Assembly (NCBI GenBank): GCA_031292195.1
Contig: JARLHP010000259.1
Coordinates: 1-33,956, forward strand
DNA: 33,956 nt
Direction of reading: 5' to 3'
From: Syntrophobacteraceae bacterium
GTDB lineage: Bacteria; Desulfobacterota; Syntrophobacteria; Syntrophobacterales; Syntrophobacteraceae
The notes under the pieces are model-generated. The model saw only the letters and a list, made by a program, of their open reading frames with translations, was not told the DNA's origin and made no database searches. Of this stretch, positions 163-23,868 are shown one piece after another; the first letter of the stretch is position 1; every line of letters begins with the position of its first letter. Position numbers and translations under genes: made by a program.

Positions 163-591
163 ATCTAAAAGAATCGGAAGAGCCTTTCCATTCCCGGATC
201 CTTTTCTAAACGCCCGGGTTGCTGCCGGTATTTTCGACTCTGGCAGGCAAGGTTGAAGTCGGGTCAGTCATTCATGCCCCGGCGGTTGCACCGTTTACAT
301 TGAAGATTTTGACCGCGTTGAAAACATCCCCCTAAGCCTCAAAACCAGGTTTTCTTGGCGGCTTCATCCCGGCCCCTCTGGCAAGCCGCCGCCATCCAGA
401 ATGCCCGTCCATACCTGGAGGCTCACCGGCAGTTGACTTTCTCCATTAATTCTTTCCTTGCCGGTTATCTGAAAAGGATCCATAATTTTATAAGAGATCT
501 TTTGAATTTAGGATTTCCATATCTTAGCTGTTCCAAGCCGCCGGGTCTAAAGATCTGTTTTGGGCGGCGAATTTGGAAATAGGGGGTGACC
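163..591. other. Intergenic stretch, no supported gene
   Basis: About 430 bases between the YgiT-type gene end and the UPF0175 gene. Open frames here are short, lack ribosome binding sites and resemble no family I know. It is moderately AT-rich near 430-540, so the promoter of the next gene probably lies there, but I see no convincing -35/-10 pair. Confidence 0.5.
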
Positions 592-846
592 ATGGGCCTG
601 TCTCTCACTGTCGAATATCCTGAAAAGTTGCCTGATGCCTTGCAGCTATCCAGGCAGGACTTCGAACGTGAAGCGAAAATGGCAATGGCAGTCAAGCTCT
701 ATGAACTAAAAAGATTGTCGTCCGGTGTCGCCGCTGCCCTTGCCGGTATGGATCGGGTGACTTTTCTCCTGAGTCTGCACCGATTTGGGACTTGCATGAT
801 AGATCTGGACGATGAAGAACTGGCTTCGGATGTAGAAAATGCGTGA
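592..846 (+). CDS. UPF0175 family protein, putative antitoxin
   Basis: An 84-residue protein matching the UPF0175 pattern: an N-terminal strand ending in LTVEYPEKLPDAL, then a helical part (FEREAKMAMAVKLYELKRLSSGVAAALAGMDRVTFLLSL) whose end looks like a helix-turn-helix. UPF0175 proteins commonly act as antitoxins paired with DUF3368 PIN-like toxins. ATG 592 is preferred over GTG 586 because of the purine run AGGGGGTG just upstream. Its 3' end overlaps the next gene by 8 bases (ATG 839), the usual translationally coupled arrangement of such pairs. The partner is broken, so this may be an orphan antitoxin. Confidence 0.7.
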   Translation: MGLSLTVEYPEKLPDALQLSRQDFEREAKMAMAVKLYELKRLSSGVAAALAGMDRVTFLLSLHRFGTCMIDLDDEELASDVENA

Positions 847-1347
847 AACCGGCAGGATGGTGATCAATACCGGACCGATCATTGCCTTGGTGGCCGCGCT
901 TGGGGATCTCAGGGTATTAGAGCTTTTATATGGCGAGGTTATTGTGCCTTTGGAGGTCAGTGAAGAAGTGTTAGCTGGAGGGAGTGCTGGTTTTGCCGTT
1001 CGTCAGTTTCAGGAAGCCCGGTGGCTGCGGCGTCGGTCTCGGAGGACCCCGATCTCTGCACATCTTTTAAACCTTTTGGACCAGGGAGAAGCCTCTTCAT
1101 AATGACAACCGAAAATTCCCCCGCCTCGATGAAAGTATCAATATTGTTTTATCGACGAGAGTGCCGGCAGAAGAGTTGCTCGACTTTATAACCTGCTTTT
1201 AACCGGTTCGATTGGAATCCTGTTGCGCGCAAAGCAAAAAGGCATACACGACTCCATGGGGCAAGCTCCATGGAGAGCAAGGGAATTTGGCTGAGTGAAG
1301 GAGTCAAGAAGTTTGCCTTCCATCACGCCGGTGAAGAGGACGTATAG
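839..1347 (+). pseudogene. DUF3368 (PIN-like) toxin, disrupted
   Basis: The N-terminal part (VINTGPIIALVAALGDL, then an IVPLEVSEEV segment) is typical of DUF3368 proteins, the usual partners of UPF0175. The frame stops at TAA 1100 after LLDQGEASS. The family's C-terminal signature reappears from 1151 in the same frame (IDESAGRRVARLYNLLL, GSIGILLRAKQKG), and the final WLSEGVKKFAFHHAGE segment lies in a different frame ending at TAG 1345. About 50 bases (1100-1150) hold several stops, followed by a frameshift near 1250. The gene is therefore broken at two places and should give no active toxin. The identification is by family pattern and by pairing with UPF0175. Confidence 0.65.
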
Positions 1348-1491
1348 AGCTGCTTTCCCCAAGACAAGGGTAAAATCGCGGAGCCATGTTTATAATTTCG
1401 GGTACTTATAAATGTATAGTTCTTTGTTATGTCTATAATATTGGGGTGGTGATTTAGCCTCACGGAGGTTTTGCAAAGAGGAGATAAGGCG

Positions 1492-1629
1492 ATGGGAAAA
1501 CGGGTTGAAGTTATAGAAAGCACTGCCGGGCAAGTTGCGGCCGAGCTTGCCCGTCGGGGCTATCTCGATTTTACCGCTGTTTTCATACCTGCCGCCTCCA
1601 CACCGGCTGGAGCGACCGATGGCGTATAG
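1492..1629 (+). CDS. Small ORF, 45 residues, unknown (doubtful)
   Basis: ATG 1492 is preceded by an AGGAGAT-type ribosome binding site at 1479-1485 with fair spacing, and a TATAAT box lies about 55 bases upstream, so expression is plausible. The peptide begins MGKRVEVIESTAGQVAAELA and its last residues come from the 50-bp repeat that recurs at 2365. I recognise no family. It could be the remnant of a small antitoxin-like gene truncated by that repeat, or chance. Confidence 0.25.
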   Translation: MGKRVEVIESTAGQVAAELARRGYLDFTAVFIPAASTPAGATDGV

Positions 1630-1654
1630 CTTATCCTTTTTGTTTTTACGAGAG
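1605..1654. repeat. 50-bp dispersed repeat, copy A
   Basis: 44 of 50 bases match positions 2365-2414 in direct orientation, including the unbroken run TTTTACGAGAG at the end. Copy A lies just beyond the 3' end of the leftward HigA-like gene. Function unknown; possibly a remnant of a mobile or regulatory element. Confidence 0.7.
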
Positions 1655-1690
1655 TGAGCACTCTGACTGTTCACCCTCCATTGTTCTTTT

Positions 1691-1921
1691 CTATTGCTCC
1701 GCCAGTTCCGGGACGTATTCATCTTCATATTGCTCTATCAACACGGCAACAACTTCCATCAGAGACGCCAATGGATGTCTCTCGTCCTGGCCGACTTCAT
1801 CGACCAGGTTGTCCAGAAAACTGACCAAAGCATTATAATCCTGCTCTGAATGGGGAACAAAAAGGATATCTGAAATAGAAGGCCATACCTTGGCGGCCTT
1901 TTGCATTTCCGAGGCAAGCAT
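1691..1921 (-). CDS. HigA-like antitoxin lacking the helix-turn-helix domain
   Basis: A 76-residue acidic protein. The segment NALVSFLDNLVDEVGQDE, then HPLASLMEVVAVLIEQYEDE, matches the N-terminal dimerisation half of HigA-type antitoxins (COG5499 group). In those proteins an XRE-type DNA-binding domain normally follows, giving about 120-140 residues; here the protein ends a few residues later. The start is ATG at 1921 because GGAAGGAG sits just upstream; an earlier in-frame ATG at 1936 lies inside that ribosome binding site region. It starts two bases after the HigB-like toxin stop, so the two form a toxin-first operon. Either a naturally short antitoxin or a truncated one. Confidence 0.65.
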   Translation of the reverse strand: MLASEMQKAAKVWPSISDILFVPHSEQDYNALVSFLDNLVDEVGQDERHPLASLMEVVAVLIEQYEDEYVPELAEQ

Positions 1922-1923
1922 AG

Positions 1924-2211
1924 CTACTCCTTCCATTTACTTTTGCCGTATTCTTCATGCGTCAACACGGCCCGAATATACACTTTTCTCCGGTTGTAAT
2001 GAATGGCTGCGATCAGCCTCACTGTATTGCCGCCCACGTTGAAAACCGTGAGCCTGCCCACTTGATCAGCATCTGGAAAGATTTCCCGCAACTCGGCAAA
2101 AGAATCGAAGCTTCGTGACTTGAGGAGATGATACCAACGCTGGAGAGCAGATCTGGATTCAGGATGCGCTTCGGCAAAATCGTTGAGTCTCTTTCGTGTA
2201 ATGACGTGCAT
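1924..2211 (-). CDS. HigB-type toxin (mRNA interferase family)
   Basis: A 95-residue protein beginning MHVITRKRLNDFAEAHPE, with the family's WYHLLKSRSFDSFAELREIF helices and the strand core VFNVGGNTVRLIAAIHYNRR, ending YIRAVLTHEEYGKSKW. This is the HigB_toxin (RelE-fold) pattern; such proteins cut mRNA on the ribosome. An open frame extends upstream to 2334, but family alignment supports the start at 2211 (ATG), with an in-frame ATG two codons earlier as alternative. It sits directly upstream of the HigA-like gene on the same strand. The family call is good; activity is inferred. Confidence 0.8.
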   Translation of the reverse strand: MHVITRKRLNDFAEAHPESRSALQRWYHLLKSRSFDSFAELREIFPDADQVGRLTVFNVGGNTVRLIAAIHYNRRKVYIRAVLTHEEYGKSKWKE

Positions 2212-2804
2212 CGCCATTATCCAGGAAATGTTCTTCTTCTCAAAGGCAATCCAAACGGAGCTCTCAGGATAGGCGCCCCGGGTTTGGCCCCAGCCTGCGC
2301 TCTCATCCGTTTGCAGAGAAAAGGATACACACATCGACCGCCAACGTCAATTGACAGTTCTCATGGCTGGAGTGCCCGATGGCCTAAAGCTCATCCTTTT
2401 TGCTTTTACGAGAGCAAGGGTAGGCGGCGAACCCGTATTCGCTTCGACCGTGCCGTCACTACTGCCCCCCCGCCTCAAGTCTTCAGTACAGCGTGAAAGA
2501 ACCGCCTGTATGGGAGCCGCCGCTTTTTTCCCGTACAATCCCTCCAGTGAAATGGGGTTAGGTCTTTTATTATGATATTATGGAACCCTACGCAGTCTCA
2601 TAAGAAAAGGATCGCATACGTTTGAATGTTCACGCGCCGACCCCTCTTCCATGATCGCAAGTCGTGGAATACGCCATGGACAAATCCCGCGTGCTTCCTG
2701 ATCCACGCCCAGCCGGAAACCTCCCCAATGGTTTCAACCACGTGGTATCCCGCAGGCGTCAAAACCCTCAGACTGCTCCTTGTGGCTACGGCCGGCAAAT
2801 TTGC
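2212..2804. other. Intergenic stretch of about 590 bases, no supported gene
   Basis: Short open frames occur on both strands (for example 2598-2798 on the minus strand), but none has a recognisable domain or a good ribosome binding site. It includes repeat copy B at 2365-2414. The rest may be decayed coding DNA. Confidence 0.45.
2365..2414. repeat. 50-bp dispersed repeat, copy B
   Basis: Direct repeat of 1605-1654, 44 of 50 positions identical. It lies about 150 bases upstream of the HigB-like start, so the two copies bracket the leftward HigBA-like pair. Confidence 0.7.
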
Positions 2805-3185
2805 TTATCCGTTTCTCTTTGCGACATATTGGACGCCGTCGATCTGTGCGAAGTCGGAATCCTGAGTCCACAGGACTGCTCCATGCACCCGTGAGGTCGC
2901 AAGGATAATGCTATCGGCCATCGGCAAACGGTATTCGATGCTCACTTTCGCGGCGAGAATCGCGATTTCCGCCGAGAGGTCCACAACCGCACCCTGCTGC
3001 ATGAGTGCTGCAGCTTGCAGTGCGTCGGATTCACCGCGTTGATGGAGAACTACCTTGAAAACCTCATAGATCGTAATGGATGGAACGACGAGATCGGACG
3101 TCTTCGCCAGAGGGCGTGAAAAGAACGATGCGTTGGGACCGTCAGCGAAATACTCAAGCCAGCCGGATGAATCGATTATGTTCAT
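2805..3185 (-). CDS. vapC: VapC-type PIN-domain ribonuclease toxin
   Basis: A 126-residue PIN-domain protein. The expected acidic metal-binding residues are all present: D5 (MNIIDSSGW), E41 (IYEVFK), D91 (PMADSIILA) and D109/D111 (TQDSDF). Length and spacing are normal for VapC toxins, which cleave tRNA or rRNA. Its start codon overlaps the stop of the upstream AbrB-type gene by four bases (3182-3185), the classical antitoxin-first coupling. This pair looks intact, unlike several neighbouring systems. Confidence 0.85.
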   Translation of the reverse strand: MNIIDSSGWLEYFADGPNASFFSRPLAKTSDLVVPSITIYEVFKVVLHQRGESDALQAAALMQQGAVVDLSAEIAILAAKVSIEYRLPMADSIILATSRVHGAVLWTQDSDFAQIDGVQYVAKRNG

Positions 3186-5224: not shown

Positions 5225-5741
5225 TAACGCGCTAGGGAAATGCAGACGCAAGGACCGCTGAACGGGTCCTCGAGTTTTTTACGGCACACATTCGAAACCG
5301 TCCCGCGAGAAACAGCCGCGCAAAAAAGCGGAATAAGTTCTTCTGTGTCACAAATCTTGATTTATGGCACAACCGCCCCAGACAAAATCCAGCTGAGCGA
5401 GGAGATGCCTACCACCGCGTGGCGGCAAGCTGCGGGCCGGACGCGGCAGGCCGGCCCGCTTCAACTTCGTATTCTTCGTGTCCTTCCTGGTGAAATCCGG
5501 TCCCTGGTGGTGAACGCCTTCTGCCAACCCGTATCGAGTACACTCCGGATCGAAATCCGTTGGCTTTTGCCGTTCCCTCTTTTTGCTGCGCGTGGCGGTT
5601 TCCTCTTCTGGTTGCCGTTTCTATTGCCTCCTCTATGTGCCGCTTCCGGTTGCCGTTTTGCAGACCGTGATTTACCGGTGCTACAATCGCCTCGGCCGCC
5701 AACGGATTGGGCTTTCCCTGCGGCCCGATTCTTCGGCGCCC

Positions 5742-5905
5742 GGTGGCATTTCTGTTCTGGAGGGATTCCATTGCACTCACGCCAGGTTCAGACTGATTCC
5801 GGTCCGATGGCCCTTGTCTCCGTGGTTCCGCGTGGTGCGGTCCATCCGCCGAAGGCCTGCCCTTTTGACCGGCCGTCGTCTCCCGGCCGGTCAAAAAAGA
5901 GGTCA
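5742..5905. repeat. Approximately 145-bp duplication, copy 1 (uninterrupted)
   Basis: This copy aligns with 6289-6429 plus 6628-6650 in direct orientation, with many identical blocks (for example ACTGATTCCGGTCCG and CTTTTGACCGGCC). In copy 1 the block GACCGGCCG is followed directly by TCGTCTCC and then CGGCCGGTCAAAAAA, giving the ancestral uninterrupted state. No coding function apparent. Confidence 0.75.
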
Positions 5906-6033
5906 CCTCTTGTGCCTGTGGTGGACTTTTTCAGGTTTTGGCCTGCGAACAAATTTTCCGTGCCCCGGCGCGGCCCACAATTGACTCCGGGAGGCTTGCA
6001 AATGTTTTCGCTCTTATTCCCCTCGCATCGGCT

Positions 6034-6089
6034 GGCTGTTAACCTCGCTGTTACCTGGCTGATACCTGGCTGTTTTCAGGCTGTTATTT
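6034..6089. repeat. 11-mer tandem array (GGCTGTTACCT-like, five units)
   Basis: Five consecutive units of 12, 11, 11, 11 and 11 bases, each starting GGCTG or CGCTG and mostly ending ACCT: GGCTGTTAACCT, CGCTGTTACCT, GGCTGATACCT, GGCTGTTTTCA, GGCTGTTATTT. Degenerate but strictly phased. No gene overlaps it. Confidence 0.85.
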
Positions 6090-6288
6090 TTTACCCAAAA
6101 ATCCTCAAATGCCAATTAAATCGTTATCATACGAAAATGCCAAAAAAAGATCCGCTGTTTTATCAGCGGAAACAGCGTACGCTTTCATCTCGGGGATTAT
6201 TGCAATCACCAAAAGTTCCGCCGAAGAATTGCGGCGAGGAGGGGCCACAGCAAACGGTCATGTCGCTCACGCATCGCTTCTCACACCC

Positions 6289-6650
6289 GGGGCCATTCTG
6301 TTCTGGAACCATTCCATTGCACGCATGCCGGGTTGGGACTGATTCCGGTCCGTTGGCCCCTGTTTCCGTGGTCGGATGTGGTGCGGCCCTTGCGCCCAAG
6401 GCCTGCTCTTTTGACCGGCCGCTTTCTCCCCAATACTGTAGCTTTAGGGATTTGCCGGCTTTCCTTGCCGGTCGGTGCGCCATTGTTCTTACCTCGCGCC
6501 AAAGGCGCGATGCCGTAGGCCGGCGCACGGAACGTGCGCCGGCTCAAATGGCGGGTGCAGGGCGGACACCGCCCTGCGCTTTTGTTCTTCGCATTTTATT
6601 AGTAAAGCAACAGTATTGGCCCTCTCCCGGCCGGTCAAAAAAAGATCGCC
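6289..6650. repeat. Approximately 145-bp duplication, copy 2 (interrupted)
   Basis: Direct repeat of 5742-5905. Similarity runs from GGGGCCATTCTG (6289) to CTTTCTCC (6429), is interrupted by a 190-bp insertion (6430-6619), and resumes with CGGCCGGTCAAAAAAA (6628 on). Copy 1 thus serves as an empty-site control for the insertion. Confidence 0.7.
6430..6619. mobile_element. 190-bp MITE-like element with terminal inverted repeats and three hairpins
   Basis: The ends CCAATACTGTAGCTTTA (6430-6446) and the reverse complement of 6603-6619 agree at 16 of 17 positions. The immediate flanks CTTTCTCC (6422-6429) and CCCTCTCC (6620-6627) agree at 6 of 8 positions and look like an aged 8-bp target duplication; the empty copy has TCGTCTCC there. 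Inside are three perfect hairpins with three-base loops: 6494-6510 (7 bp, loop AAA), 6519-6543 (11 bp, loop GAA) and 6557-6577 (9 bp, loop ACA). No transposase is encoded, so it would be mobilised in trans if at all. I know no named family for it. Confidence 0.7.
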
Positions 6651-6768
6651 TCCGTGTCCCTGGCGAATGAACGCAAATGGACGCGAATTTTAAAAGAGGA
6701 GAAGAGGTGATTTGGGATTTATCGGCGTCCATCAGCGTCCCTCCGCGCGCGATTGTGCGAAAAAGTGG

Positions 6769-6804: not shown

Positions 6805-8334
6805 ATGGCACAAGTGGCACTGCAGGCACAACCCCCAAACGGGAGCGCACAAGTGATCGAATTTAGAGTCGGAGAGCTGGCCGAATTGCTGGGCGTGCAC
6901 CGAAACACGGTCGGAAACTGGATCCGCAGCGGCGCGCTGCGGGCCTCGGCGGCGGTGGCCAAGAAATATTTGGTGGAAGAAGAGGAACTCCGGAGATTCT
7001 GCGTTCTTCAGACGATACCGGAAAGCGTTGTTTCCCGGATAGTGTCCAAAGAGGTCGATTCGGCGGGCAAGGAGGAAAAGATCATGCCGCAGTCAGCATC
7101 TGTTGGCGATGTGAGAACGGTAGGCGACCGGCAGAGCGTGTTGCGGGCCGACCCGGGGTGGGCCGACTTGTGCCTGACCTGCGGGAGCTGCGCCAGCGCC
7201 TGCCCCATTTCGGGGGTGGACGGCCTGGACCCCCGGAAAATCGTTCGCATGGTGGTGTTGGGCCGAACCAACGAGGTGGTGGCCTCCAACTGGCCGTGGA
7301 AGTGCACCCTGTGCGGCAAGTGCGAGGAAGCCTGCCCCATGAACCTGGAGCTGGTGAAGCTGTTTCGGCGCATCCGCTCCCTTCGGGAGCGCGACAAGGT
7401 GCCGGGGCCTCTGCACAAGGGCGTTCTCATGGCGCTGCGAAGAGGCAACAACCTGGGGATCCCCCGGGCGGATTTCGTAGAGCTTCTGGAAGAGGTGGGA
7501 GAAGAGCTGGCCGAGGAGTGCTGCCCGGGTTTTGTCACGCCCATAGACGTCGAAGGGGCCAACCTGCTGCTCACCCTCAACTCCAAGGAGCCCTTCGGCG
7601 AGCCCGACGACATGAAGTTCTGGTGGAAGATCTTCCATGCCGCGGGCGAGTCCTGGACCATTCCCGCCGAGAACTGGGAGGGGGTCAACTGGGGGCTTTT
7701 CACCGGAGATGACGACGCCATGCGCGTCATGGTGGGCCGCATCGTGGACAACATGCTGCGGCTGGACTGTAAAAAACTGGTCTTGCCCGAATGAGGCCAT
7801 GCCTACTACGCAACCCGGTTCGGGTTGGAAAAATGGTATGCCGACGAGCTTCGAAAATTTGAAGTGGTGACCGTGTTCGATCTTCTGCTGGACTATCTGC
7901 GCAGCGGTCGCATCAAAATAGATAAATCCCTGCACTCTCAGCTCACCACCTATCACGATCCGTGCAACTACGGAAGAAAGTCGCTCAAGACCTTCGGGCG
8001 CGGCTATTTCGAAGAACCCCGCGAGATCGTGCGACACTGTTGCGATAATTTCGTGGACATGTATCCCAACCGGGAAGGCAATTATTGCTGCGGCGCCGGA
8101 GGGGGGGCCTGGGCGCTTCCTTTCCAGGAAGAGCGGGTGTTCTACGGACGGATCAAGGCCAGGCAGATCCGCTCCACCGGGGCCGAACTGGTCGTCACCC
8201 CGTGCCACAACTGCCGCGACCAGATCCTGAAGAGCCTGCGCAAGGAATATAAACTCGATATCGAAGTCAAATACCTCTGGGAACTGGTTTCCGATGCACT
8301 GATCCTCGACGAGTCCGGCAAGGAAACTCAATAG
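6805..8334 (+). CDS. HTH-HdrC/HdrD-like heterodisulfide reductase subunit, selenoprotein (Sec330)
   Basis: One 509-residue protein read through UGA 7792-7794; the frames before and after are the same. Domains: MerR/excisionase-type helix-turn-helix (about residues 20-66, RVGELAELLGVHRNTVGNWI); HdrC-like pair of [4Fe-4S] motifs at 123-134 (CLTCGSCASACP) and 167-178 (CTLCGKCEEACP); then an HdrB/HdrD-like part. The first CCG-type module lacks its double Cys (NWGLF) but keeps the site LPE-U-GHAYY, where homologues have Cys; the second is complete (YCCGAGGG near 427, PCHNC near 467). Its likely role is the disulfide-reducing, iron-sulfur subunit of an Hdr/Mvh complex in the cytoplasm. An internal ATG at 7084 behind AAGGAGG could give a 416-residue form without the HTH. 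It starts the operon and is followed by hdrA after 15 bases. Confidence 0.85.
7069..7075 (+). promoter_or_regulatory. Strong internal Shine-Dalgarno (alternative start at ATG 7084)
   Basis: AAGGAGG stands eight bases before the in-frame ATG 7084, exactly at the junction between the HTH domain and the HdrC-like part. It is much stronger than the site before ATG 6805. It may define the true start of the enzyme or a second, shorter product. Confidence 0.6.
7792..7827 (+). promoter_or_regulatory. UGA Sec codon and SECIS-like hairpin 1 (HdrC/D fusion)
   Basis: UGA at 7792-7794. Hairpin stem CAACCC (7811-7816) pairs fully with GGGTTG (7822-7827), loop GGTTC (7817-7821). The loop begins after exactly 22 bases of spacer and contains the GGU that the SelB-binding loop of bacterial SECIS elements usually carries. 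Confidence 0.75.
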
Positions 8335-8349
8335 CCGATGGAGTGGAAA

Positions 8350-11300
8350 ATGAGCGAACAGGTCAAAGGCTCGGTTTTGATTGCCGGCGGGGGAATAGCC
8401 GGTATGCAGGCGGCCCTCGATGCCGCCAACTCCGGGTTCTATGTTTATTTGCTGGAGCGCCGCGCGGCCATTGGCGGCAAAATGGCTCAGCTGGACAAGA
8501 CCTTCCCGACCAACGACTGCGCGATGTGAATTATCTCGCCCAAACTGGTCGAGGTCGGCCGGCACCTTAATATAGAGTTGATCACCCTGGCGGAAATAAC
8601 CGACGTGACCGGCGAGCCGGGAAACTTCCAGGTGGAAGTGACCAGGCGTCCCCGGTTCGTCGACACCGAAAAGTGCATCGCCTGCGGCCTGTGCGCCGAG
8701 AAGTGCCCGAAAAAGGTCGATGACGAATACAACGAAAAAATCTCCAAGCGAAAAGCCGTCTATATCCCGTACGCCCAGGCGGTTCCTCAGAAATATGCCA
8801 TAGACGCCGACAACTGCATTTATCTGAAGAGCGGTAAATGCGGGGCCTGCGAAAAGTTCTGCCCGGCGGGGGCCATCAATTTCGAGGACAAGCCCCAAAC
8901 CGTGAACCTCAATGTGGGCGCCATTATCTTGAGCCCCGGCTTTGCCGCCTTCGATCCCACCGGCATTCGCACCTGGGGCTACGGGGAATTCAAAAATGTG
9001 ATCACTGCGATGGAGATGGAGCGGATTCTCTCCGCTTCGGGTCCGACCGAAGGCCACCTGGTCCGCCCCTCGGACAAAAAAGAGGTAAAAAGGATCGCTT
9101 TCATCCAGTGCGTGGGTTCCCGCGATCTCAACAAATCCCGGAACGGGTATTGCTCGTCTGTTTGCTGCACCTACGCCATAAAGCAGGCCATGATGGCCAA
9201 AGACCATGTAAAGGATCTGGAAGCCTCCATCTTTTTCATGGACATGAGGACTCATGGCAAGGAGTTCGAGCGCTACTACGAGCGGGCCAAGGGTCTGGGG
9301 ATCGAATTCAAGCGGTGCCGGGTGCACTCTCTGGAGCCGGTATCCGAGACGAGCGATATCTACTTCCGCTATATAGACGATTGCGGCAGGCAGCTCGAGA
9401 CGCAGTACGACCTGGTGGTCCTGTCGGTGGGGCTTTGCACGCCGCCTTCCGCCATGGAGCTGGCATACCACGCCGGTGTGGAACTAAACGAGAACCGGTT
9501 CGTGGAGTCTTCCTCGTTTGACCCCGTTGCCACCTCGCGGCCGGGGGTTTTTTCCTGCGGCGCCTTTTCCGGCCCCAAGGACATTCCGCAGACGGTAATG
9601 GAGGCCTCGGCGGCTGCCGCGGATGCCACCCGTTTGCTTGCCGGGGCGCGAAACAGCCTCACCCGGACAAAGGAATTCCCCCCGGAAATCGAGGTCGCAA
9701 GCGATGAGGTCCGAATCGGCGTCTTCATCTGCCACTGCGGGACCAACATAGCCGGGGTGATCGATGTGGAAAGGCTCGCCCGATATGCGGAGACGCTTCC
9801 AAACGTCGCCCACGTGGGGCGAAATCTTTTCACTTGCTCGCAGGATACCCAGGACATCATCAAAAACGCCATAAGGGACAAGGGTCTAAATCGCGTGGTG
9901 GTGGCCGCCTGCACGCCCAGGACCCACGAGCCGCTTTTCCGGGAGACCTTGAAGTCCGCCGGGCTAAACGAGTATCTTTTCGACATGGCCAATATCCGCA
10001 ACCAGGACTCCTGGGTCCATGCGGCGGAGCCCGAGCGGGCCACCGAGAAGGCCATGGATCTCGTGCGCATGTCGGTTGCCAAGGTGGGGCTCCTGACCCC
10101 CCTGCCGTCCATCTCTGTTCCGGTGAACCAGGCTGCCCTGGTGATCGGGGGCGGGATTTCGGGAATGGTGTCCGCCCTGGAGTTGGCCGATCACGGTTTC
10201 CACGTTTCCCTGGTGGAAAAGGCCAACGTGCTGGGCGGCCAGGCGCGTCACCTGTTCCGCACCTGGAAAGGCGAACTGATCGAGCCCGCCCTTCAGGAAC
10301 TGGATGCCCGCGTTCGCAGTAACCCCCTCATCACCCTGCATCTGGAGTCGACGGTAGGTTCGGCCGAAGGCTTCGTCGGCAACTTCAAGTCGACTATCGT
10401 AAGAGGCAAGGATTCCAGGGTGGTGGAGCACGGCGCGACCATTATCGCCACGGGCGGACAGGGCTATGTGCCCGAGGGGGAATATCTTTTCGGCACGTCC
10501 AGCCGGGTATTTACGGCCATCGAATTCGATAAGCTCCGAATGGTGGGCGACCGGCGCATGAAGCAGGCCAAAAACTACGTTTTCATCCAGTGCGTGGGAT
10601 CGCGGTGCGAAGAGCGGATGTACTGCTCCCGGGTGTGCTGCACCCATTCGGTGCAGGCCGCCATCGAGCTCAAGGAAAGTAGTCCCGCCGGCGAAGTGTT
10701 CGTTCTCTATCGGGACATGAGAACGTACGGCCAGCGTGAGGAACTCTACCGAAAGGCCAGGGAAAAGGGTGTGGTCTTCATACACTACGAGGCCCATCAA
10801 ATGCCGAAGGTAAGACCCTTGGAACCGCGCCGGCTGGAAGTGGAAGTCTTCGACCACATATTGCACGAACCTCTGAGAATCGTAACCGATATCGTGGTGC
10901 TGGCCACGGCTATTACCCCCAATGCGGCAACGGCGGAACTGGCCGACATCTACAAGCTTCCGGTCGATGCCGACGGCTTTTTCCAGGAGGCCCATGCCAA
11001 GCTTCGGCCGGTGGATTTCGCCGCGGACGGGATTTTTATGGCAGGTCTTGCCCACTGTCCCAAGCCGGTGGACGAATCGATCGCCCAGGCCAAGGCGGCC
11101 GCGGGGCGGGCGGTGAGCGTGCTTGCCGGCAGCAGCATAGACCTGGAAGCGACCAAGGCCACGGTTGTAAATGCAAACTGCGACGGGTGCGCGATGTGTT
11201 TGGACGTTTGTCCCTACAAGGCCATCTCGCTGGTATCCGAAGAGGAGGCCGGCGGGAAAAGGAATGCGCGCGTGGAAGTAAACCTCGCCCAGTGCAAGGG

Positions 11301-11403
11301 ATGCGGCTTGTGCCAGGCGACCTGCCCCAAGGACGGTATTTACGTTGCCGGTTTTTCGCTGGAGCAGATTGCGGCGCAGGTCGAAGCCGCGCTGGCCGGT
11401 TGA
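8350..11403 (+). CDS. hdrA: HdrA, duplicated flavin/iron-sulfur subunit, selenoprotein (Sec60)
   Basis: A 1,017-residue protein, read through UGA 8527-8529 (frames identical on both sides). The N-terminal module has the FAD fingerprint LIAGGGIAGMQAALDAANSG (from residue 10), TNDCAM-U-IISPKLVEVGRH with Sec60 where homologues have Cys, and [4Fe-4S] motifs CIACGLCAEKCP and CGACEKFCP. From about 458 (FICHCGTNIAG) a complete standard HdrA follows, with a second FAD site (VIGGGISGMVSALELADHG, about 595) and a C-terminal 2[4Fe-4S] ferredoxin (CDGCAMCLDVCP, CKGCGLCQATCP). HdrA carries the bifurcating flavin that splits electrons between ferredoxin and disulfide. ATG 8350 has GGAGTGG at good distance; ATG 8338 is the alternative. 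Next comes mvhD after a REP-like hairpin. Confidence 0.93.
8527..8562 (+). promoter_or_regulatory. UGA Sec codon and SECIS-like hairpin 2 (hdrA)
   Basis: UGA at 8527-8529. Stem CTGGTCG (8545-8551) pairs with CGGCCGG (8556-8562) over 7 bp, two of them G-U, loop AGGT (8552-8555). The loop begins after 22 bases of spacer, identical to the other three hairpins, and contains GGU. Confidence 0.75.
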
Positions 11404-11416
11404 TCCGCCATTGCTA

Positions 11417-11439
11417 AGTAGGAGCGGCTTCCAGCCGCG
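11417..11439. repeat. REP-like hairpin between hdrA and mvhD
   Basis: GTAGGAGCGGCTTCCAGCCG and three more bases form a 6-bp perfect stem GCGGCT/AGCCGC with a TCC loop, preceded by GTAGGA. This resembles the REP palindromes common in intergenic spaces of Proteobacteria (Pseudomonas REPs also start GTAGGAGCGG). There is no T-run after it, so it is not a typical terminator; it may stabilise the upstream message or cause partial attenuation. Confidence 0.55.
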
Positions 11440-11459
11440 AAAAAATCCAGGAGAGCAAT

Positions 11460-11885
11460 ATGTCCTTCGAACCTAAAATAATCGGTTTTACCTGTAACTG
11501 GTGCAGTTACGCAGCGGCCGATCTTGCCGGGGTCTCGCGCATGCAGTACCCGCACAACGTGCGGCTGGTGCGGGTGATGTGCTCGGGGATGGTTCACCCC
11601 AGGGTGGTGTCCCAAGCCTTTGAGATGGGCGCGGACGGCGTGCTGGTAATGGGTTGACACCTCGGCGAATGTCATTACCAGGATGGTAATTATAAAGCTT
11701 TGGCCCGTGCGGATGTTATAAACCAGATGATAGAGGCCCTGGGACTGGAAACTGAGAGATTCGAGCTGATTTGGTGCTCGGGGGCGGAGGCCGACAGGTT
11801 TGTGGCGGCAGTGACGTCCATGACCGAAAAGGTACGCGGCCTCGGGCCTTCACCCTTTAACCGGGCCGTTGCGGCTGCTTCGTGA
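11460..11885 (+). CDS. mvhD: MvhD/VhuD-like [2Fe-2S] electron-transfer subunit, selenoprotein (Sec66)
   Basis: A 141-residue protein read through UGA 11655-11657, the normal length of MvhD. It starts [20 protein letters not shown] and carries the conserved RVMCSGMV segment. Sec66 replaces the first Cys in the family motif G-C-H-x-G-x-C-H-Y (here [17 protein letters not shown]). MvhD passes electrons from the hydrogenase (MvhAG) to HdrA. The methanogen VhuD also carries selenocysteine, as established for Methanococcus. Ribosome binding site CAGGAGAG stands just before ATG 11460. Stopping at the UGA would leave 65 residues with the motif cut in half. Confidence 0.92.
11655..11690 (+). promoter_or_regulatory. 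UGA Sec codon and SECIS-like hairpin 3 (mvhD)
   Basis: UGA at 11655-11657. Stem ATTACC (11674-11679) pairs fully with GGTAAT (11685-11690), loop AGGAT (11680-11684), again after 22 bases of spacer. The stem is AT-rich, unlike its neighbours, yet perfectly paired. Confidence 0.75.
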
Positions 11886-11895
11886 GGAGGGTGAG

Positions 11896-12834
11896 ATGGC
11901 GGTAAAAGTTGCTCAGGAATGGCTCAACTCTTGTTCGGGCTGTGAAATATCCATTGTGGACATGGGCGAGCGGCTGCTCGATGTGCTCGCGCAAGTCGAA
12001 TTCGTTCACTCTCCGGTCCTGATGGACCACAAGTACTTCGGGCAGCTCGGCTCCGGACGTCACCTGGAGATACCCGAGGCGGTGGTGGGGCTGGTGAGCG
12101 GCGGGGTAAGAAACGAGGAGCACCTGGAAGTGCTTACCGAGATGCGAAAAAAATGTCAGGTGCTGATCGCTCTTGGCACCTGCGCGACTCACGGTGGTAT
12201 TCCGGCCCTCGCCAATTCCTACCGAAACGATGAGATACTGGAAAGATACTACTCCACGGAGACGACCGACAAGTGTGAAGAGGTTCCTTCCGAGGGGTTG
12301 CCTCCTCTTCAAGACTCCTGCACGGCGCTGGATGAAAAGGTCAAGGTGGATATTTATCTGCCGGGGTGTCCGCCCAATCCCGACCATGTGTTTTCGGCCC
12401 TCGTGTCGCTTCTGGAAGGTCGTCCCGTCCAGCTGCCGGAAAAGAGCGTCTGCGATTTCTGCCCGACCGTGCGCGAAGGCAAAGGCGGGGTGAAAAAGCT
12501 TCGGAGGTTTTTGCAGGCCCCTCAATATGGGGCGCCCGGCGAACCGCTCGATAAAATGCGCTGCCTCCTGGAGCAGGGTATCCTGTGCATGGGGGCGGTC
12601 ACCAGGGCGGGGTGCGGCGGAGACGCCAAGACGCCCCGCTGCATAGCGGCCAGGGTGCCCTGCCGGGGTTGCACAGGCCCGGTCAGGAAAAATGGTAACC
12701 AGAGGTTTGACATGCTGAATGCATTGGCTTCGAACGGGGTGGACATTTCGTCTCTTCCCGAGTCCGTATCACTTTTGCGATTTTCCGGGGCGCACGGTCT
12801 GCTCCGGCCTTCTCGCAAAGGCAAGGAGGCCTGA
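11896..12834 (+). CDS. mvhG: MvhG-like [NiFe] hydrogenase small subunit
   Basis: A 312-residue protein. The start MAVKVAQEWLNSCSGCEISI has the proximal-cluster CxxC; further cluster ligands appear in LGTCATHGG, LPGCPPNP and CDFCP, and the C-terminal part has ferredoxin-like cysteines (CMGAVTRAGCGG, CIAARVPCRGCTGP). It relays electrons from the active site in MvhA to MvhD. ATG 11896 is chosen because GAGGAGG (11884-11890) stands just before it; the open frame extends back into mvhD. No in-frame UGA is present: this is the only one of the five complex genes without a predicted selenocysteine. The stop is two bases before mvhA. Confidence 0.9.
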   Translation: MAVKVAQEWLNSCSGCEISIVDMGERLLDVLAQVEFVHSPVLMDHKYFGQLGSGRHLEIPEAVVGLVSGGVRNEEHLEVLTEMRKKCQVLIALGTCATHGGIPALANSYRNDEILERYYSTETTDKCEEVPSEGLPPLQDSCTALDEKVKVDIYLPGCPPNPDHVFSALVSLLEGRPVQLPEKSVCDFCPTVREGKGGVKKLRRFLQAPQYGAPGEPLDKMRCLLEQGILCMGAVTRAGCGGDAKTPRCIAARVPCRGCTGPVRKNGNQRFDMLNALASNGVDISSLPESVSLLRFSGAHGLLRPSRKGKEA

Positions 12835-12836
12835 AC

Positions 12837-14294
12837 ATGGGACAGGTAATAAATATTCAGCCGATAACGCGCATCGAGGGGCACGCCTCGATATCCATTC
12901 AGTTGGATGACCAGGGGAATGTGGCGGACAGCAAAGTCCATGTCATGGCCCTGCGCGGATTTGAAAAGTTTGTGGAGGGAAAACCGGCCGAAGAGCTGCC
13001 GCGCATAGTCACCCGCATCTGCGGAATATGCCCGTGGCAGCACCACCTGGCTTCGAACAAGGCGGTTGACCGCTGCTTTGGTGTGACCCCCACGCCTGCC
13101 GGAAGATTACTGCGGGAGCTGATGCAGACCGTTGCGCACGCAGAGGACAAGGTGCTTCATTTCTTTTTCCTGGCTGCTCCGGACTTCGTCATGGGCCCCG
13201 ACGCCGATTACTCGGTAAGAAATGTGATGGGGATCGTGAAGGCTGCCCCTGAGCTGGCTCAGCGCGTTGTAAAGATGCGCTACGCCGCCAAGATGATACT
13301 GGAAAAATTTGCCGGCAAGGCCATCCACCCCGTGGCGGGCGTACCGGGCGGTTTTTCCAAGGCCATGACCGAAACTGAGAGGCTCGAAATACTCTCGAAG
13401 ATGCAAGAGGTGCTCGATTTTGCCCTTTTCACCATGGATTTTGCCAAAAAGGAAGTTTTCCCCAAGTATTTAAACGAGGTAAAGGAACTGGGGGTAATCA
13501 AGACGGGCTTCATAGGCACGGTGGACGAGCAGGGCGCGGTCAATTTCTACGACGGAAAGCTCCGGTTGATGAAGCCGGACGGAACCTACACCGATTTTGA
13601 TTCGCAGGACTATTGCGATCACCTGGCCGAGCACGTCGAACCTTATTCCATGGGGAAAATGCCTTACGCCCGTTCCTGGAACGAGGGGTTTTCGCTCGAC
13701 CTGGAAAATCCCAAGGGGATTTACAGGGCCAACACTCTGGCCAGGATCAACGTGGCCGATAAGATGGCCACCCCCGGGGCGCAGGCCGAGTTGGAGGAAT
13801 TTCGGGAAAAATTCGGAAGGCCCGCTCAGTACACCTTGCTCCATCACTGGGCGCGGCTGATCGAAGAGGTCTATGCCTGCGAGCACGCCATCGAGCTTCT
13901 GGAAGACCCCGAAATCACCAACCCCGATGTGCGGGCCAAGGTCGAGCCCGGGGCCGGGCGTGGCGTAGGCTGTGTCGAGGCCCCCCGGGGAACTCTCATT
14001 CACGACTACACCACCGACGAAAACGGTTTGATAAAGAGCGCCAACCTGATCGTGGGCACCACCCACAACCTTGGGCCCATAAACATGAGCGTCAATCAGG
14101 CCGCCCGGATGCTTATAAAAGGAGGTAAGGTCGACGAATCCTGTCTCAACAAGATTGAGATGGCGGTTCGCGCCTACGACCCCTGAATGTCCTGCGCTAC
14201 TCACCGCCTGGATGGCGGTATGTCGATCTCGATGGTAATCAGGGACTCCAAGGGCGGGGTGGTAGGCAATTGGCCCGGCGGTTCAGTCGATTAG
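12837..14294 (+). CDS. mvhA: MvhA-like [NiFeSe] hydrogenase large subunit, selenoprotein (Sec450)
   Basis: A 485-residue protein when UGA 14184-14186 is read as selenocysteine. The N-terminal nickel motif is RICGIC (L1, about residues 58-63). The C-terminal motif is AYDP-U-MSCATH, the DPCxxCxxH L2 motif with Sec in place of the first Cys, as in [NiFeSe] hydrogenases and methanogen VhuU. Stopping at UGA would leave the enzyme without both L2 ligands. Past the conserved His there are 29 more residues to TAG 14292, the usual length of the tail removed by a maturation protease; no protease gene is visible. It oxidises or produces H2 at the Ni-Fe-Se centre and is the last subunit of the operon. 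Confidence 0.93.
14184..14219 (+). promoter_or_regulatory. UGA Sec codon and SECIS-like hairpin 4 (mvhA)
   Basis: UGA at 14184-14186. Stem ACCGCC (14203-14208) pairs fully with GGCGGT (14214-14219), loop TGGAT (14209-14213), after 22 bases of spacer. Loop sequence nearly equals that of hairpin 3 (AGGAT). Confidence 0.78.
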
Positions 14295-14324: not shown

Positions 14325-14585
14325 ATGAGCGCTGCCAGAGACACAAAGAAGAAGGTGGTAAAAGTCGAGGCCGTGGACACGGCCTGCGGAAAAGTTCCCC
14401 ATATGACGGTCGATCAGCTGGTGGAAAGATTCCATATAGAGAGCCGCGAGCTGCACTGTCCTGCCTGCGGCAGGATCCATCTGAGCGAGGAAGACGCCAG
14501 GAATGCCGAGGCCATGCTTTTCAGCCAGACCGAAAGGTTTCGGCAGATAAAGACGGAAGCTGAAGGCGACAAGACCAAGAAGTAG
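14325..14585 (+). CDS. Small CPxCG-motif protein of unknown function
   Basis: An 86-residue charged, Lys-rich protein with a possible metal site made of VDTACGKVPH and ELHCPACGRIHLSEEDA. I do not recognise a family. GGAAAGG (14311-14317) stands before ATG 14325. It begins 30 bases after the hydrogenase large-subunit stop and on the same strand, so it is probably co-transcribed; a role in maturation, assembly or regulation of the hydrogenase would fit the position but is only inferred. A domain search against zinc-ribbon and CGGC-type small proteins would decide. Confidence 0.6.
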   Translation: MSAARDTKKKVVKVEAVDTACGKVPHMTVDQLVERFHIESRELHCPACGRIHLSEEDARNAEAMLFSQTERFRQIKTEAEGDKTKK

Positions 14586-14623
14586 GGCGCCGGGGATCCG
14601 GATTCTGGACAAGGAGCGGTTCA

Positions 14624-15331
14624 ATGTTAATCGCAGACTGGATGAGCACAACCGTAATCAAAGTGGAACCTGGTGTTTCGGTTACCGAAGCCATGGATAT
14701 TCAAACTCAAAATGACATCAGCATCCTTCCGGTCGTACAGGACGAAAAGCTTGTCGGAATAGTCACAGACGTTGACCTCAAGCCGTTTCGCAGTTCGGCG
14801 GGCGCGTCACTGGACCCGCTCGTCATCCAGGGGATGAAGGTCGAAGATGTAATGTCTCGCGCCCCGGTGACCATCCCGGTGGATTTCACGGTGGGGGAGG
14901 CCGCCGAGGCCATGTTGACCGGCGGCGTGTCGGGACTGGTCGTAGTCGATGCAAATAAGCACATCGTCGGTGTGATCACCCAGACCGATTTGAATCGCGT
15001 GCTGGTATCGGTGACCGGTTTGTGGCACGGGGGAATTGCCTTCGGCTTTCTTATCGAAGACGTTCCCGGTTCGATCAAGGTCCTTACCGACATCATGCGA
15101 GCCTTCGGCGGGAGACTGGTAAGCATCATGACCGCCTATATACGGGCGCCGAAGGGGTACAGAAGGGTCCATATCCGTGTGCGAGGCCTTGATAGAAACA
15201 GGTTCGATGAAATGCTGGGGCAGCTTAAACAATCGTCCGACATCCTCTACATCATCGACCATCGGATGAACACCCGGAAACTCTATGTTACTCCCGGAAC
15301 GACTGAAACTCGATCCGGAAGGATGAATTAG
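14624..15331 (+). CDS. CBS-pair and ACT-domain protein (AcuB-like)
   Basis: A 235-residue protein. Two CBS repeats cover about residues 1-55 (MLIADWMSTTVIKVEPGVSV, QNDISILPVVQDEKLVGIVT) and 70-130 (VEDVMSRAPVTIPVDFTVGE, GGVSGLVVVDANKHIVGVIT). From about 145 an ACT-like domain follows (EDVPGSIKVLTDIMRAFGGR). Such proteins sense adenine nucleotides or small metabolites; acuB is one named member. It lies 38 bases after the small CPxCG gene and may report energy state to the Hdr-Mvh system, an inference from position. The start has an AGGAGCGG-type ribosome binding site. Confidence 0.8.
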   Translation: MLIADWMSTTVIKVEPGVSVTEAMDIQTQNDISILPVVQDEKLVGIVTDVDLKPFRSSAGASLDPLVIQGMKVEDVMSRAPVTIPVDFTVGEAAEAMLTGGVSGLVVVDANKHIVGVITQTDLNRVLVSVTGLWHGGIAFGFLIEDVPGSIKVLTDIMRAFGGRLVSIMTAYIRAPKGYRRVHIRVRGLDRNRFDEMLGQLKQSSDILYIIDHRMNTRKLYVTPGTTETRSGRMN

Positions 15332-19423: not shown

Positions 19424-19853
19424 ACCGCTCCCCCCCACCGGCACCGCGGCCCGGGGCCGCCGCCAGGCCAAAGCCCCAGCGCCAACCCCGGAACCGGGCA
19501 AATGATTTCCACTCAAAAGTTCTCAGATTAGAAGTTATCTTCAATCAAGTCAACCACACTGTCCAAGTCCCGCAGATTAATTTTAAACTTTATGCGCGGC
19601 GATCGACAGACGTTTCGAGGCCTAAAATCTTCCAGAAGGAAAAAATGCGCGCCGGGCGGCGGACTTCGACTGCGGGCCAGGGATGATCCCGATCGGCGGC
19701 CCGCCGGGCATGGTCTCCAAGGGGCGGGTTTCCCCCTACTTTTTACCGGTAGCGTTTACTTTCCCCCAGGATGAGGGTAACATAGGCCAAAATCTCAGAT
19801 CGGGAATCATTTTTCAGTATCCGTTTCGGATCACCGTTTTGCAAGGGCACTTC
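19424..19853. other. Divergent intergenic region between mrp and gspE
   Basis: About 430 bases separating the leftward mrp-tkt pair from the rightward gsp operon. It contains the mrp promoter candidate (19525-19553). The gspE frame is open back to 19683, but family similarity begins only after 19854. No gsp promoter is convincing. Confidence 0.5.
19525..19553 (-). promoter_or_regulatory. Sigma-70 promoter for mrp-tkt
   Basis: On the minus strand, -35 TTGACT (19553-19548) and -10 TAATCT (19530-19525) are 17 bases apart, five of six and four of six matches to consensus with ideal spacing. It points at mrp, whose start lies about 100 bases downstream. Confidence 0.65.
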
Positions 19854-21545
19854 ATGGAAAAACAGATTTGTCTGCTGGATGCGTTTCAACTGGAATTCAA
19901 CCTGGACGAAGAGCAGAAACGGCGCCTGCAGCATTCCTTTTTTATCGAACGGCTTCCGCTGGCCGATGCGTTCGAAGAGATCGCCATTACGGACGAAAGC
20001 CGCATCCTCCGGGTGATGGCCAATCACCTGGGGCTCCCCATGCTGGTCCGCGAGGACTATCCCGAGAAGCCGGTGCTTTTGGAGGGTGTTTCGATGTTTT
20101 TCCTTCGAAAGCACGCCATTTTGCCCATCCAGGTGGAAAGCGGCAGGGTGCGGGTGGTGGTAAACGACCCCATGGATCTGCCGGTACTCAACACCGTGTC
20201 GAACTATTTCGGCGGAATGGAGCTGGGCCTTTACCTGGGACAGCGCGAGGAGATCCGTACGGCCATCGACCGGCTCTACGGGACTGCGGCCCGGGAAGCC
20301 GAAGAGCAGTCCGTTATGACGGTGGACGCCGGGGGCTTTGAAGACGACCTGGAGCACCTCCGGGGGCTGGCCCAGGAGGCGCCCATCGTTCGCCTGGTAA
20401 ACGTGCTGATCTCGCGGGCCCTCGATATGCGGGCCTCCGATATTCACTTCGAGCCCTTCGAGCGGGCCTTCCACGTCCGGTGCCGGGTAGACGGCGTGCT
20501 CTTCGATCTGGACCAGCCCCAGAAGACCATGCAGTCGGCCATCGTAAGCCGGTTGAAGCTTATGGCCAACCTCAACATAGCCGAACGGCGCCTGCCCCAG
20601 GACGGCAAGATCAAGATCCGGTTCGGAAACCGGGAAGTCGACATTCGCGTTTCCACCGTGCCCACCATTTACGGAGAGAGCGTTGTCCTGAGACTGCTGG
20701 CCCAGGAGAGCGTGGAATATGACCTGGGCAACCTGGGCATCGAGGAAAAACCCCTCAAGTATATAGAGGGGTTGATCGAGCGTCCCTACGGAATGGTGCT
20801 GGTTACCGGGCCGACCGGTTCCGGGAAGACCACCACCCTCTACGGGGTGCTAAAAAGGCTCAACACGGTCACCCGCAAGATCATCACCGTCGAAGACCCC
20901 GTGGAGTACCAGGTAAACGGCATAAACCAGGTCCAGATAAAGCCGCAGATCGGGCTCAACTTCGGCACCACGCTGCGCTCCCTGGTCCGCCAGGACCCCG
21001 ACGTTTTGCTCATAGGCGAAATCCGCGACAAGGAAACCGCCGATATAGCCATCGAATCGGCTCTAACCGGGCACCTGGTGCTTTCAACGCTTCACACCAA
21101 CGACGCGCCCGGTGCAATCACGCGCCTTCGGGACATCGGAATCGAGTCTTTCCTCATGGCCGATTCCCTGCTTACCGTCATGGCCCAGCGCCTTATTCGG
21201 GTGCTTTGCCCTCACTGCAAGGAGGAGTACCAGGCGCGGGAAGAGGATATGCTTAAAATCGGCAGCATATTGTCCGATCTGCCGCAAAGCCTCAGTCTCT
21301 ACCGGAACAAGGGATGCGAAAGGTGCGGTTATACGGGATATAAAGGCCGACAGGGGATTTTCGAGATTCTTCCGGTAAACGAGGCTGTGAAATCGGCCAT
21401 CGTGGCGGGCAAAGACGCCGGCACCATAGCGCGGATAGCCTCCGGGTTCGACTACCGGCCGCTAGCCCACAACGGGTTTCGGAAGGTGATCGATGGAATA
21501 ACCAGCCTCTCCGAGGTGTTAAGGGTTACAAGCCTTTCGACCTAG
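19854..21545 (+). CDS. gspE: Type II secretion ATPase GspE
   Basis: A 563-residue secretion ATPase. After an N-terminal GspE/MshEN-type domain come the arm segment MRASDIHFEPFE, Walker A GPTGSGKTTT (about residue 319), the Asp box ITVEDPVEYQ, Walker B VLLIGEIRD, and the His box TLHTNDAPGA. The C-terminal zinc knuckle CPHC...CERCGYTGYKGR is complete. It powers pseudopilus assembly at the inner membrane. ATG 19854 has AAGGGC upstream at a longer than ideal distance. First gene of an operon with gspF through gspD. Confidence 0.93.
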   Translation: MEKQICLLDAFQLEFNLDEEQKRRLQHSFFIERLPLADAFEEIAITDESRILRVMANHLGLPMLVREDYPEKPVLLEGVSMFFLRKHAILPIQVESGRVRVVVNDPMDLPVLNTVSNYFGGMELGLYLGQREEIRTAIDRLYGTAAREAEEQSVMTVDAGGFEDDLEHLRGLAQEAPIVRLVNVLISRALDMRASDIHFEPFERAFHVRCRVDGVLFDLDQPQKTMQSAIVSRLKLMANLNIAERRLPQDGKIKIRFGNREVDIRVSTVPTIYGESVVLRLLAQESVEYDLGNLGIEEKPLKYIEGLIERPYGMVLVTGPTGSGKTTTLYGVLKRLNTVTRKIITVEDPVEYQVNGINQVQIKPQIGLNFGTTLRSLVRQDPDVLLIGEIRDKETADIAIESALTGHLVLSTLHTNDAPGAITRLRDIGIESFLMADSLLTVMAQRLIRVLCPHCKEEYQAREEDMLKIGSILSDLPQSLSLYRNKGCERCGYTGYKGRQGIFEILPVNEAVKSAIVAGKDAGTIARIASGFDYRPLAHNGFRKVIDGITSLSEVLRVTSLST

Positions 21546-21576
21546 TGGACCAGACGCAGGTCTTTGGGGTTTTATT

Positions 21577-22764: not shown

Positions 22765-22819
22765 GATTGGGCAGGGCGGCCGGGTTCACGCGGGTATTGC
22801 CGCCAGGCGAGCTTTTGTG

Positions 22820-23392
22820 ATGCGGGAGAACAGGACCGGGTTCATCATGATGCGAACAAGGGAGTCGAACGGGAGGAAAAAACAGGAGGGGAAGGGCGGG
22901 CCCCGCGTTTTGGGGCGGTCCCGCGCGTTACCCCCCGGATTTCATCCCGGCGGCTTCACCCTTATCGAATTGCTGGTAGTCATGATGATCATGACGGTGG
23001 TTATCGCCATGACGATCCCTCGGGTGGGCTCGAACTGGAAGCAGATCCAGGACAGTGATTTTTTGCAGCAGTTCACCGAAACGCTGGAAAGGAGCAGGCT
23101 GTACGCCATGAACAGCGGCCTGCCGGTCTCCTTTCGATTGAACGGGACAAACCGGGTGTACGGGGTGGAAAGTCCGCCCGCGCACCCCATACCCCTTAAC
23201 GTGGAAATACGCGCCAATCGCCTGGAGCAGGACCCTGGAACCGGCGACTTCATCATAACTTTTTACCCCGACGGGAGCCTGGTGGGAGACGATGTGGACG
23301 TGATCTTCGACAACACGCGCACCTACGGCGTTCACATCGATCCGCTGTTTGGAACGGTGAGGGTCGAACGGGGGGGGGAGGCGGGAGGTTGA
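22820..23392 (+). CDS. gspH: GspH-like minor pseudopilin
   Basis: A roughly 190-residue prepilin with an unusually long, basic leader before the prepilin peptidase site G-FTLIELLVVMMIMTVVIA. The cleaved part has the GspH-type C-terminal beta pattern (FIITFYPDGSLVGDDVDV, GTVRVE). The start is uncertain: GTG 22817, ATG 22820, ATG 22847 and ATG 22850 are all in frame, none with a strong ribosome binding site. The major pseudopilin GspG, normally between F and H, is absent here; this protein lacks the GspG calcium-loop pattern, so I favour GspH. Confidence 0.7.
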   Translation: MRENRTGFIMMRTRESNGRKKQEGKGGPRVLGRSRALPPGFHPGGFTLIELLVVMMIMTVVIAMTIPRVGSNWKQIQDSDFLQQFTETLERSRLYAMNSGLPVSFRLNGTNRVYGVESPPAHPIPLNVEIRANRLEQDPGTGDFIITFYPDGSLVGDDVDVIFDNTRTYGVHIDPLFGTVRVERGGEAGG

Positions 23393-23790: not shown

Positions 23791-23812
23791 CGGAAAGCGA
23801 AGGGGCGGGAAA

Positions 23813-23868
23813 GTCGAAGGTCGAAGGTTGAAGGTCGAATGTTGAAAGTCGAAGGGCAAAAGTCGGGA
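23813..23868. repeat. Heptamer tandem array (GTCGAAG-like, eight units)
   Basis: Eight perfectly phased 7-base units: GTCGAAG, GTCGAAG, GTTGAAG, GTCGAAT, GTTGAAA, GTCGAAG, GGCAAAA, GTCGGGA. They fill the gap between gspI and gspJ and lie upstream of the chosen gspJ start. Confidence 0.9.

Follow-up and report, generated by a model that had tools for sequence, protein, structure and literature searches.

A selenocysteine-rich Hdr-Mvh operon in a Syntrophobacteraceae bacterium encodes an HdrC/D protein with an N-terminal helix-turn-helix domain

The contig JARLHP010000259.1 of a Syntrophobacteraceae bacterium (assembly GCA_031292195.1) was analyzed over its positions 1 to 33,956 on the forward strand; this stretch of 33,956 nucleotides is called the window. 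It contains five consecutive genes in the order glpC(hdrC/D)-hdrA-frhD(mvhD)-frhG-frhA (Table 1), and all but frhG carry one in-frame TGA. We read the five genes as one operon whose products would form a cytoplasmic electron-transfer complex linked to H2; the UGA codons of four of the genes would be translated as selenocysteine (Sec) by SelA, SelB, SelC, and SelD, and to this reading we assign a probability of roughly 0.93. The HdrC/D protein is composed of an HdrC-like two-cluster ferredoxin part, a degenerate first CCG domain, and an intact second CCG domain. [NiFeSe] hydrogenases of the Mvh/Vhu type hold their nickel by the motifs RxCGxC and DP(U/C)xxC, and MvhA contains both, as RICGIC and DPUMSC; U450 is presumably the position of a nickel ligand. 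The best NCBIfam match of MvhA is VhuA with 456.8 bits, which is under the cut-off of 800. The assignment to the Hdr-Mvh group and the HdrC/D fusion of the original prediction hold. Residue numbers are counted from the first codon of each frame in Table 1, for HdrC/D from position 6805.

Table 1. Genes, candidate selenocysteine codons, and further features of the operon
Feature	Position	Strand	Remark
hdrC/D (GlpC-type) selenoprotein gene	6853..8334	+	likely GTG start; open frame reaches back to ATG 6805
N-terminal helix-turn-helix (HTH_17 / excise), in HdrC/D frame	6853..7002	+	Pfam HTH_17 E 1.2e-10; NCBIfam excise 2.4e-8
Possible internal start ATG, AAGGAGG upstream	7084..7086	+	would give HdrC/D without helix-turn-helix
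HdrC/D Sec codon UGA (LPE-U-GHAYY)	7792..7794	+	U330 in frame 6805-8334
SECIS-like hairpin of HdrC/D	7811..7827	+	7 bp stem
hdrA, long form, two HdrA-like flavin parts	8338..11403	+	Sec at residue 64
HdrA Sec codon UGA (CAM-U-IISPK)	8527..8529	+	U64
SECIS-like hairpin of HdrA	8545..8562	+	7 bp stem
mvhD (FlpD/VhuD family)	11460..11885	+	Sec at residue 66
MvhD Sec codon UGA (MG-U-HLGECHY)	11655..11657	+	U66
SECIS-like hairpin of MvhD	11674..11690	+	7 bp stem (RNAfold); stem search chose overlapping 7 bp stem 11670-11688
mvhG, small hydrogenase subunit	11896..12834	+	ATG at 11896; no TGA, no Sec
mvhA, large [NiFeSe] hydrogenase subunit	12837..14294	+	Sec at residue 450
MvhA Sec codon UGA (DP-U-MSCATH)	14184..14186	+	U450
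SECIS-like hairpin of MvhA	14203..14219	+	6 bp stem

If TGA is read as Sec, a single open frame runs through each of HdrC/D, HdrA, MvhD, and MvhA. Ordinary TGA stops end HdrA (11401) and MvhD (11883); TGA is therefore not a sense codon everywhere in this genome. Under translation table 11 all four frames halt at their TGA, so that the operon is indeed fragmented by standard gene calling, as had been remarked. In the list of open reading frames of at least 80 amino acids, HdrC/D is represented by its two halves, and HdrA and MvhA each by their larger piece. In phmmer alignments a cysteine is found at the Sec site in solved structures of HdrA (8RVU), MvhD (8RVU, 5ODC), and MvhA (9SW2), and many relatives carry Cys at the four sites. 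Since the solved homologues have Cys and TGA is met with again at these sites in relatives, the in-frame TGAs are not there by chance. We therefore take the four TGAs, on the evidence of the sequences, to be selenocysteine codons and not errors, and the original prediction that they stand at cysteine positions of their families is confirmed. The absence of selA, selB, selC, and selD had been named as a finding that could overturn it, and all four genes are present in the genome, a draft assembly of 311 contigs and 5.5 Mb (94.89% complete, 3.38% contaminated). The tRNA-Sec gene (selC) scores 74 bits with the Rfam model and is called tRNA-SeC (tca) by ARAGORN; selA (626 bits), selB (368.1 bits), and selD (386.4 bits) all exceed their cut-offs in the genome search, and selD itself has an in-frame TGA.

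The bacterial selenocysteine insertion sequence (SECIS) is a hairpin just downstream of the UGA with a G early in the loop. With the U of UGA as position 1, RNAfold stems of 6-7 pairs start at position 19 or 20 in all four genes and the loop is centered at about position 28. A G is found within the first two loop bases of HdrC/D, HdrA, MvhA, and the RNAfold stem of MvhD; among the MvhD relatives, with stems picked by the stem search, only 9 of 58 have a G early in the loop. We compared UGA-coded with Cys-coded relatives of at least 45% identity to the window protein, leaving out rows whose site has neither UGA nor a Cys codon, rows too close to a contig end, and identical 180-nt stretches. A stem was counted if it had at least 6 pairs and was centered 24-32 nt from the first base of the codon. 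By this stem search the hairpin is present in 62/76 UGA-coded and 1/16 Cys-coded rows of HdrC/D, in 58/58 and 6/34 rows of MvhD, in 68/80 and 11/15 rows of HdrA, and in 40/73 and 0/3 rows of MvhA, and a qualifying stem occurs in 5-12% of shuffled sequences. The folding z-scores are lower in the UGA forms of HdrC/D (p 6.5e-8), MvhD (4.4e-5), HdrA (1.7e-6), and MvhA (0.024), p-values which overstate the difference because the rows are related by descent. In HdrC/D and MvhD the hairpins clearly mark the UGA-coded against the Cys-coded forms.

Besides this overstatement several points weigh against the selenoprotein reading. In HdrA the UGA and the Cys forms are not told apart by the stem count (p 0.22), and for MvhA just three Cys-coded stretches were at hand for comparison (p 0.1). 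Consensus folding yields a clear common stem in just two of the genes, MvhD and MvhA; in HdrC/D the UGA rows do no better than the Cys rows. Further, in the UGA forms of HdrC/D and MvhD the control sequence before the codon is likewise somewhat more stably folded than shuffled ones (mean z upstream versus downstream, -0.68 vs -1.30 and -0.70 vs -1.23, respectively). Neither the window nor the genome has an Rfam SECIS match, a null result which is uninformative because SECIS_1 also matched none of 14 control genomes. As to the decoding genes, they are spread over four contigs of the draft, and the tRNA-Sec model also put one tRNA-Trp and one tRNA-Leu above its cut-off. Finally, according to the part of the text of PMC8691401 that was available, the hydrogenases Mvh1 and Mvh2 of Syntrophobacter fumaroxidans were undetected in a proteome study.

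The original prediction made no mention of a helix-turn-helix domain at the N-terminus of HdrC/D, which spans residues ~20-65 of the frame from 6805. Relatives were sought in genome_contigs by a scan whose query, an alignment of HdrC/D N-termini, held the helix-turn-helix, so that fused forms are favored; of the 147 relatives found, the 80 best were retained. In 76 of these 80 loci (numbered with L; genomes with G) the domain is continuous with HdrC/D in a stop-free frame, and in three further loci the only stops precede a Met ahead of the domain; the remaining one, L169, lacks it. A check anchored on the hydrogenase is less biased: 10 of 29 loci contain HdrC/D, and nine of the ten are fused, the domain being missing in L084. 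Among the Sec HdrC/D proteins encoded outside the operon, those examined (L119-L121, L123-L126) are without the domain. The fusion is kept in Syntrophobacteraceae, Desulfobulbaceae, Desulfocapsaceae, and Desulfarculaceae. An AlphaFold2 model of HdrC/D (56 of the 75 available rows) has a mean predicted local distance difference test score (pLDDT) of 83.2 and matches EtfD, HdrB, and HdrC. The modelled helix-turn-helix weakly resembles the DNA-binding domains of BldC and MtaN (E 0.28; Foldseek probability 0.99 and 0.96). The domain is a conserved, MerR/BldC-like one. In the literature that was searched, with thin coverage of subscription journals, the fusion was not found. In viral contigs, 23 loci match only inside the helix-turn-helix (query residues 6-61) and no fusion was seen. 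In genome G276 (L098:2944-3300) the helix-turn-helix is in frame with HdrA and no HdrC/D gene lies between; the matches listed, which come from 39 genomes of the order, include just one that covers the complete domain, that of G276.

We consider the GTG at 6853, with GGGAG upstream, as the likely start of HdrC/D. Of the 79 loci read, 61 have ATG at the aligned position and 4 have GTG, and in the window and L081, L082, L083, and L085 it is GTG or ATG. A competing explanation would place the helix-turn-helix outside the HdrC/D protein: translation would begin at ATG 7084, and the upstream frame would be a remnant or encode a separate small product. The strong Shine-Dalgarno sequence before this ATG speaks for it, as do the counterparts of ATG and Shine-Dalgarno-like site in L081, L082, and L085 (weaker in L083). 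Moreover HdrC/D homologues exist without the domain, one of them in the same operon type (L169, identical to L118). The frame that is free of stops in so many loci and the conserved start codon at the position of 6853 speak, however, against this explanation. Further, the motif GVHRNT is invariant in 22 rows, and the linkers of L108 and L114 offer no ATG, GTG, or TTG from which HdrC/D could be made alone. Thus, in our view an exclusive start at 7084 is improbable. The internal ATG with its Shine-Dalgarno-like site makes two protein forms possible, and the fused and the short HdrC/D may both be made.

The selenocysteine codons recur widely. All four sites have TGA in 39 of the 80 loci, many of which are cut by contig ends. 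A stricter set of 75 operons, the window included, was drawn from these loci and the other relatives together and restricted to those with helix-turn-helix, long HdrC/D, and long HdrA, identical HdrC/D being dropped; in 52 of them every one of the four sites can be read, and 40 of the 52 are all-Sec. MvhA gave 48 matches in relatives, including the window. Of the others the 29 best were examined and have TGA at the site in 27 cases and TGC or TGT in two; the 18 weaker matches have no internal stop. It is hardly credible that the TGAs are sequencing or assembly errors or belong to decaying genes. The window does stem from a single draft assembly, but many separately assembled genomes carry the codon at these four sites as well, among them those of the named isolates Desulfopila aestuarii DSM 18488 (L205) and Desulfofustis glycolicus DSM 9705 (L202), and the frames are otherwise intact. 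Even less credible is a genome-wide recoding of TGA as a sense codon, for which we found nothing in favor, as HdrA and MvhD terminate in TGA where their homologues end, selABCD are present, and the other in-frame TGAs of the five genes all lie at redox Cys sites.

The states of the four sites were tabulated for 131 loci, duplicates between the two sets being counted. In 102 of 102 loci with the helix-turn-helix the states are nested, Sec to Cys, in the order MvhD, HdrC/D, HdrA, MvhA, an order chosen post hoc. The nesting is broken by L120 and L121, which have no helix-turn-helix and whose HdrC/D and HdrA genes are not adjacent. On a FastTree tree of 75 rows the minimum numbers of changes, whichever their direction, are 6 for MvhD, 8 for HdrC/D, 6 for HdrA, and 1 for MvhA. 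The single change in MvhA is that of L145, whose MvhA piece is located upstream of the operon and resembles a different hydrogenase. In four distinct operons (L140, L154, L183, which repeats L103, and L189) the residue in the Sec column of HdrC/D is Leu, Gly, Thr, or Ser, so Sec or Cys is not obligatory there. As these four are outside the 56-row alignment A2, the invariance of the column in A2 is partly due to the selection of rows. The nested series provides natural variants with which one could ask what Sec contributes at each site.

A sister operon type (L087, L098) encodes Sec-containing HdrA, MvhD, and MvhA without HdrC/D; between mvhD and mvhG an iron-sulfur protein is inserted which we take to resemble the F420-hydrogenase/formate dehydrogenase beta family.

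The window operon is a further member of a type published in 2006. According to the portion of Zhang et al. (2006; PMC1794560) that was accessible, S. fumaroxidans has three similar glpC-hdrA-frhD-frhG-frhA operons with four selenoprotein families and Desulfotalea psychrophila carries the same five-gene operon. Genes, gene order, and the four Sec subunits are the same as in the window; in contrast, that portion mentions no helix-turn-helix on GlpC, and hdrA is given there as two adjacent hdrA genes or as hdrA_N, a gene of unknown function, and hdrA_C, whereas hdrA of the window is one long frame. The accessible parts of other reports describe Sec-containing HdrD (among them HdrD4), HdrA, and MvhD in Desulfobacterium autotrophicum (PMC2702500) and, for a marine deltaproteobacterium, methyl-viologen hydrogenase and heterodisulfide reductase proteins with Sec (PMC8318568); a 2026 review (PMC13188914) uses "four-selenoprotein-gene operon" as a name. 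The concentration of four Sec subunits, which the original prediction had implied to be new, was hence already published. Together with the many relatives, such as L085 of genome G310, which has all four Sec and whose five proteins are 73-84% identical to those of the window, this makes the operon no curiosity; it recurs across many sulfate reducers and syntrophs, where ordinary gene calling fragments it.

The methanogen complex HdrABC-MvhADG (Vhu; e.g., 5ODC) has homologous HdrA, MvhD, and MvhA, but with Cys at the Sec sites in the solved chains that were aligned. It contains HdrB and HdrC, in whose place the window has a lone HdrC/D protein with just one complete CCG motif, and in the window HdrA has an extra flavin part and the helix-turn-helix is added. 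The best NCBIfam relatives of HdrC/D are HmcF, TmcB, and DsrK (222.9, 197.1, and 162.6 bits; cut-offs 750, 735, and 400), which belong to other electron-transfer complexes and whose matches start at residue 118 at the earliest, past the helix-turn-helix. No papers on noncubane DsrK were found in the literature searched.

The catalytic subunits HdrB and HdrD have two complete CCG motifs, whereas HdrC/D has a complete second motif only, its C387, C428, C429, C467, and C470 being invariant in the 56 rows, and a single CCG domain by Pfam; one terminal catalytic iron-sulfur site is therefore expected. By analogy to the methanogen Hdr-Mvh complex we suggest the following steps. MvhAG would be an [NiFeSe] hydrogenase of the Mvh/Vhu type, and H2 would be split at the Ni-Sec site of MvhA. 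The electrons would then pass via MvhG and MvhD to HdrA, the long flavin protein, the flavin of which could bifurcate them between ferredoxin and HdrC/D. HdrC/D would take its electrons to the terminal CCG-type iron-sulfur site and there reduce a putative acceptor, a disulfide or another compound. Alternatively the complex could run in reverse and produce H2 in syntrophy.

The selenocysteine operon itself being of a known type, what deserves further study is the fusion with the helix-turn-helix. It hints at an enzyme that could control the expression of its own operon. We tentatively propose, while holding it to be somewhat doubtful, that HdrC/D could be both a Sec iron-sulfur carrier and a DNA-binding regulator, with transcription controlled by the redox or assembly state of the hydrogenase complex or, through read-through of the UGA, by the selenium supply. 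Within this proposal the internal start conserved in the near relatives of the window could yield a form without the DNA-binding part. PutA, which acts on proline catabolism, is a parallel for an enzyme that is also a regulator. The search for an operator in 78 upstream stretches found 8-mers common to up to 31 of 78, compared with at most 6 after shuffling; in the relatives with upstream frames read, the region of shared 8-mers also holds a Shine-Dalgarno sequence and a protease-like gene, which we presume to resemble a hydrogenase maturation protease. The commonest 5-mer dyad occurs upstream in 7 of 78, a count without shuffled control. With the fusion, whether a hydrogenase-linked selenoprotein regulates genes becomes a testable question.

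In the flanking DNA, the operon is followed at 14325-15331 by an 86-amino-acid protein matched by neither Pfam nor NCBIfam and by one that has two CBS domains; L098 has a similar-looking CBS-type frame upstream of its hydrogenase operon, a likeness judged by the frame. Before the operon lies a 145-nt repeat in two copies (5740-5884 and 6286-6430) that are 81% alike, and the longest frame there, 5240-6670, is without a Pfam match. Small toxin-antitoxin-type genes are located at 586-3185 (UPF0175, HigB-like toxin, PIN domain), and at 19683-30060 there is a type II secretion or pilus-like cluster with a T2SSE ATPase with MshEN, T2SSF, PilN, and secretin.

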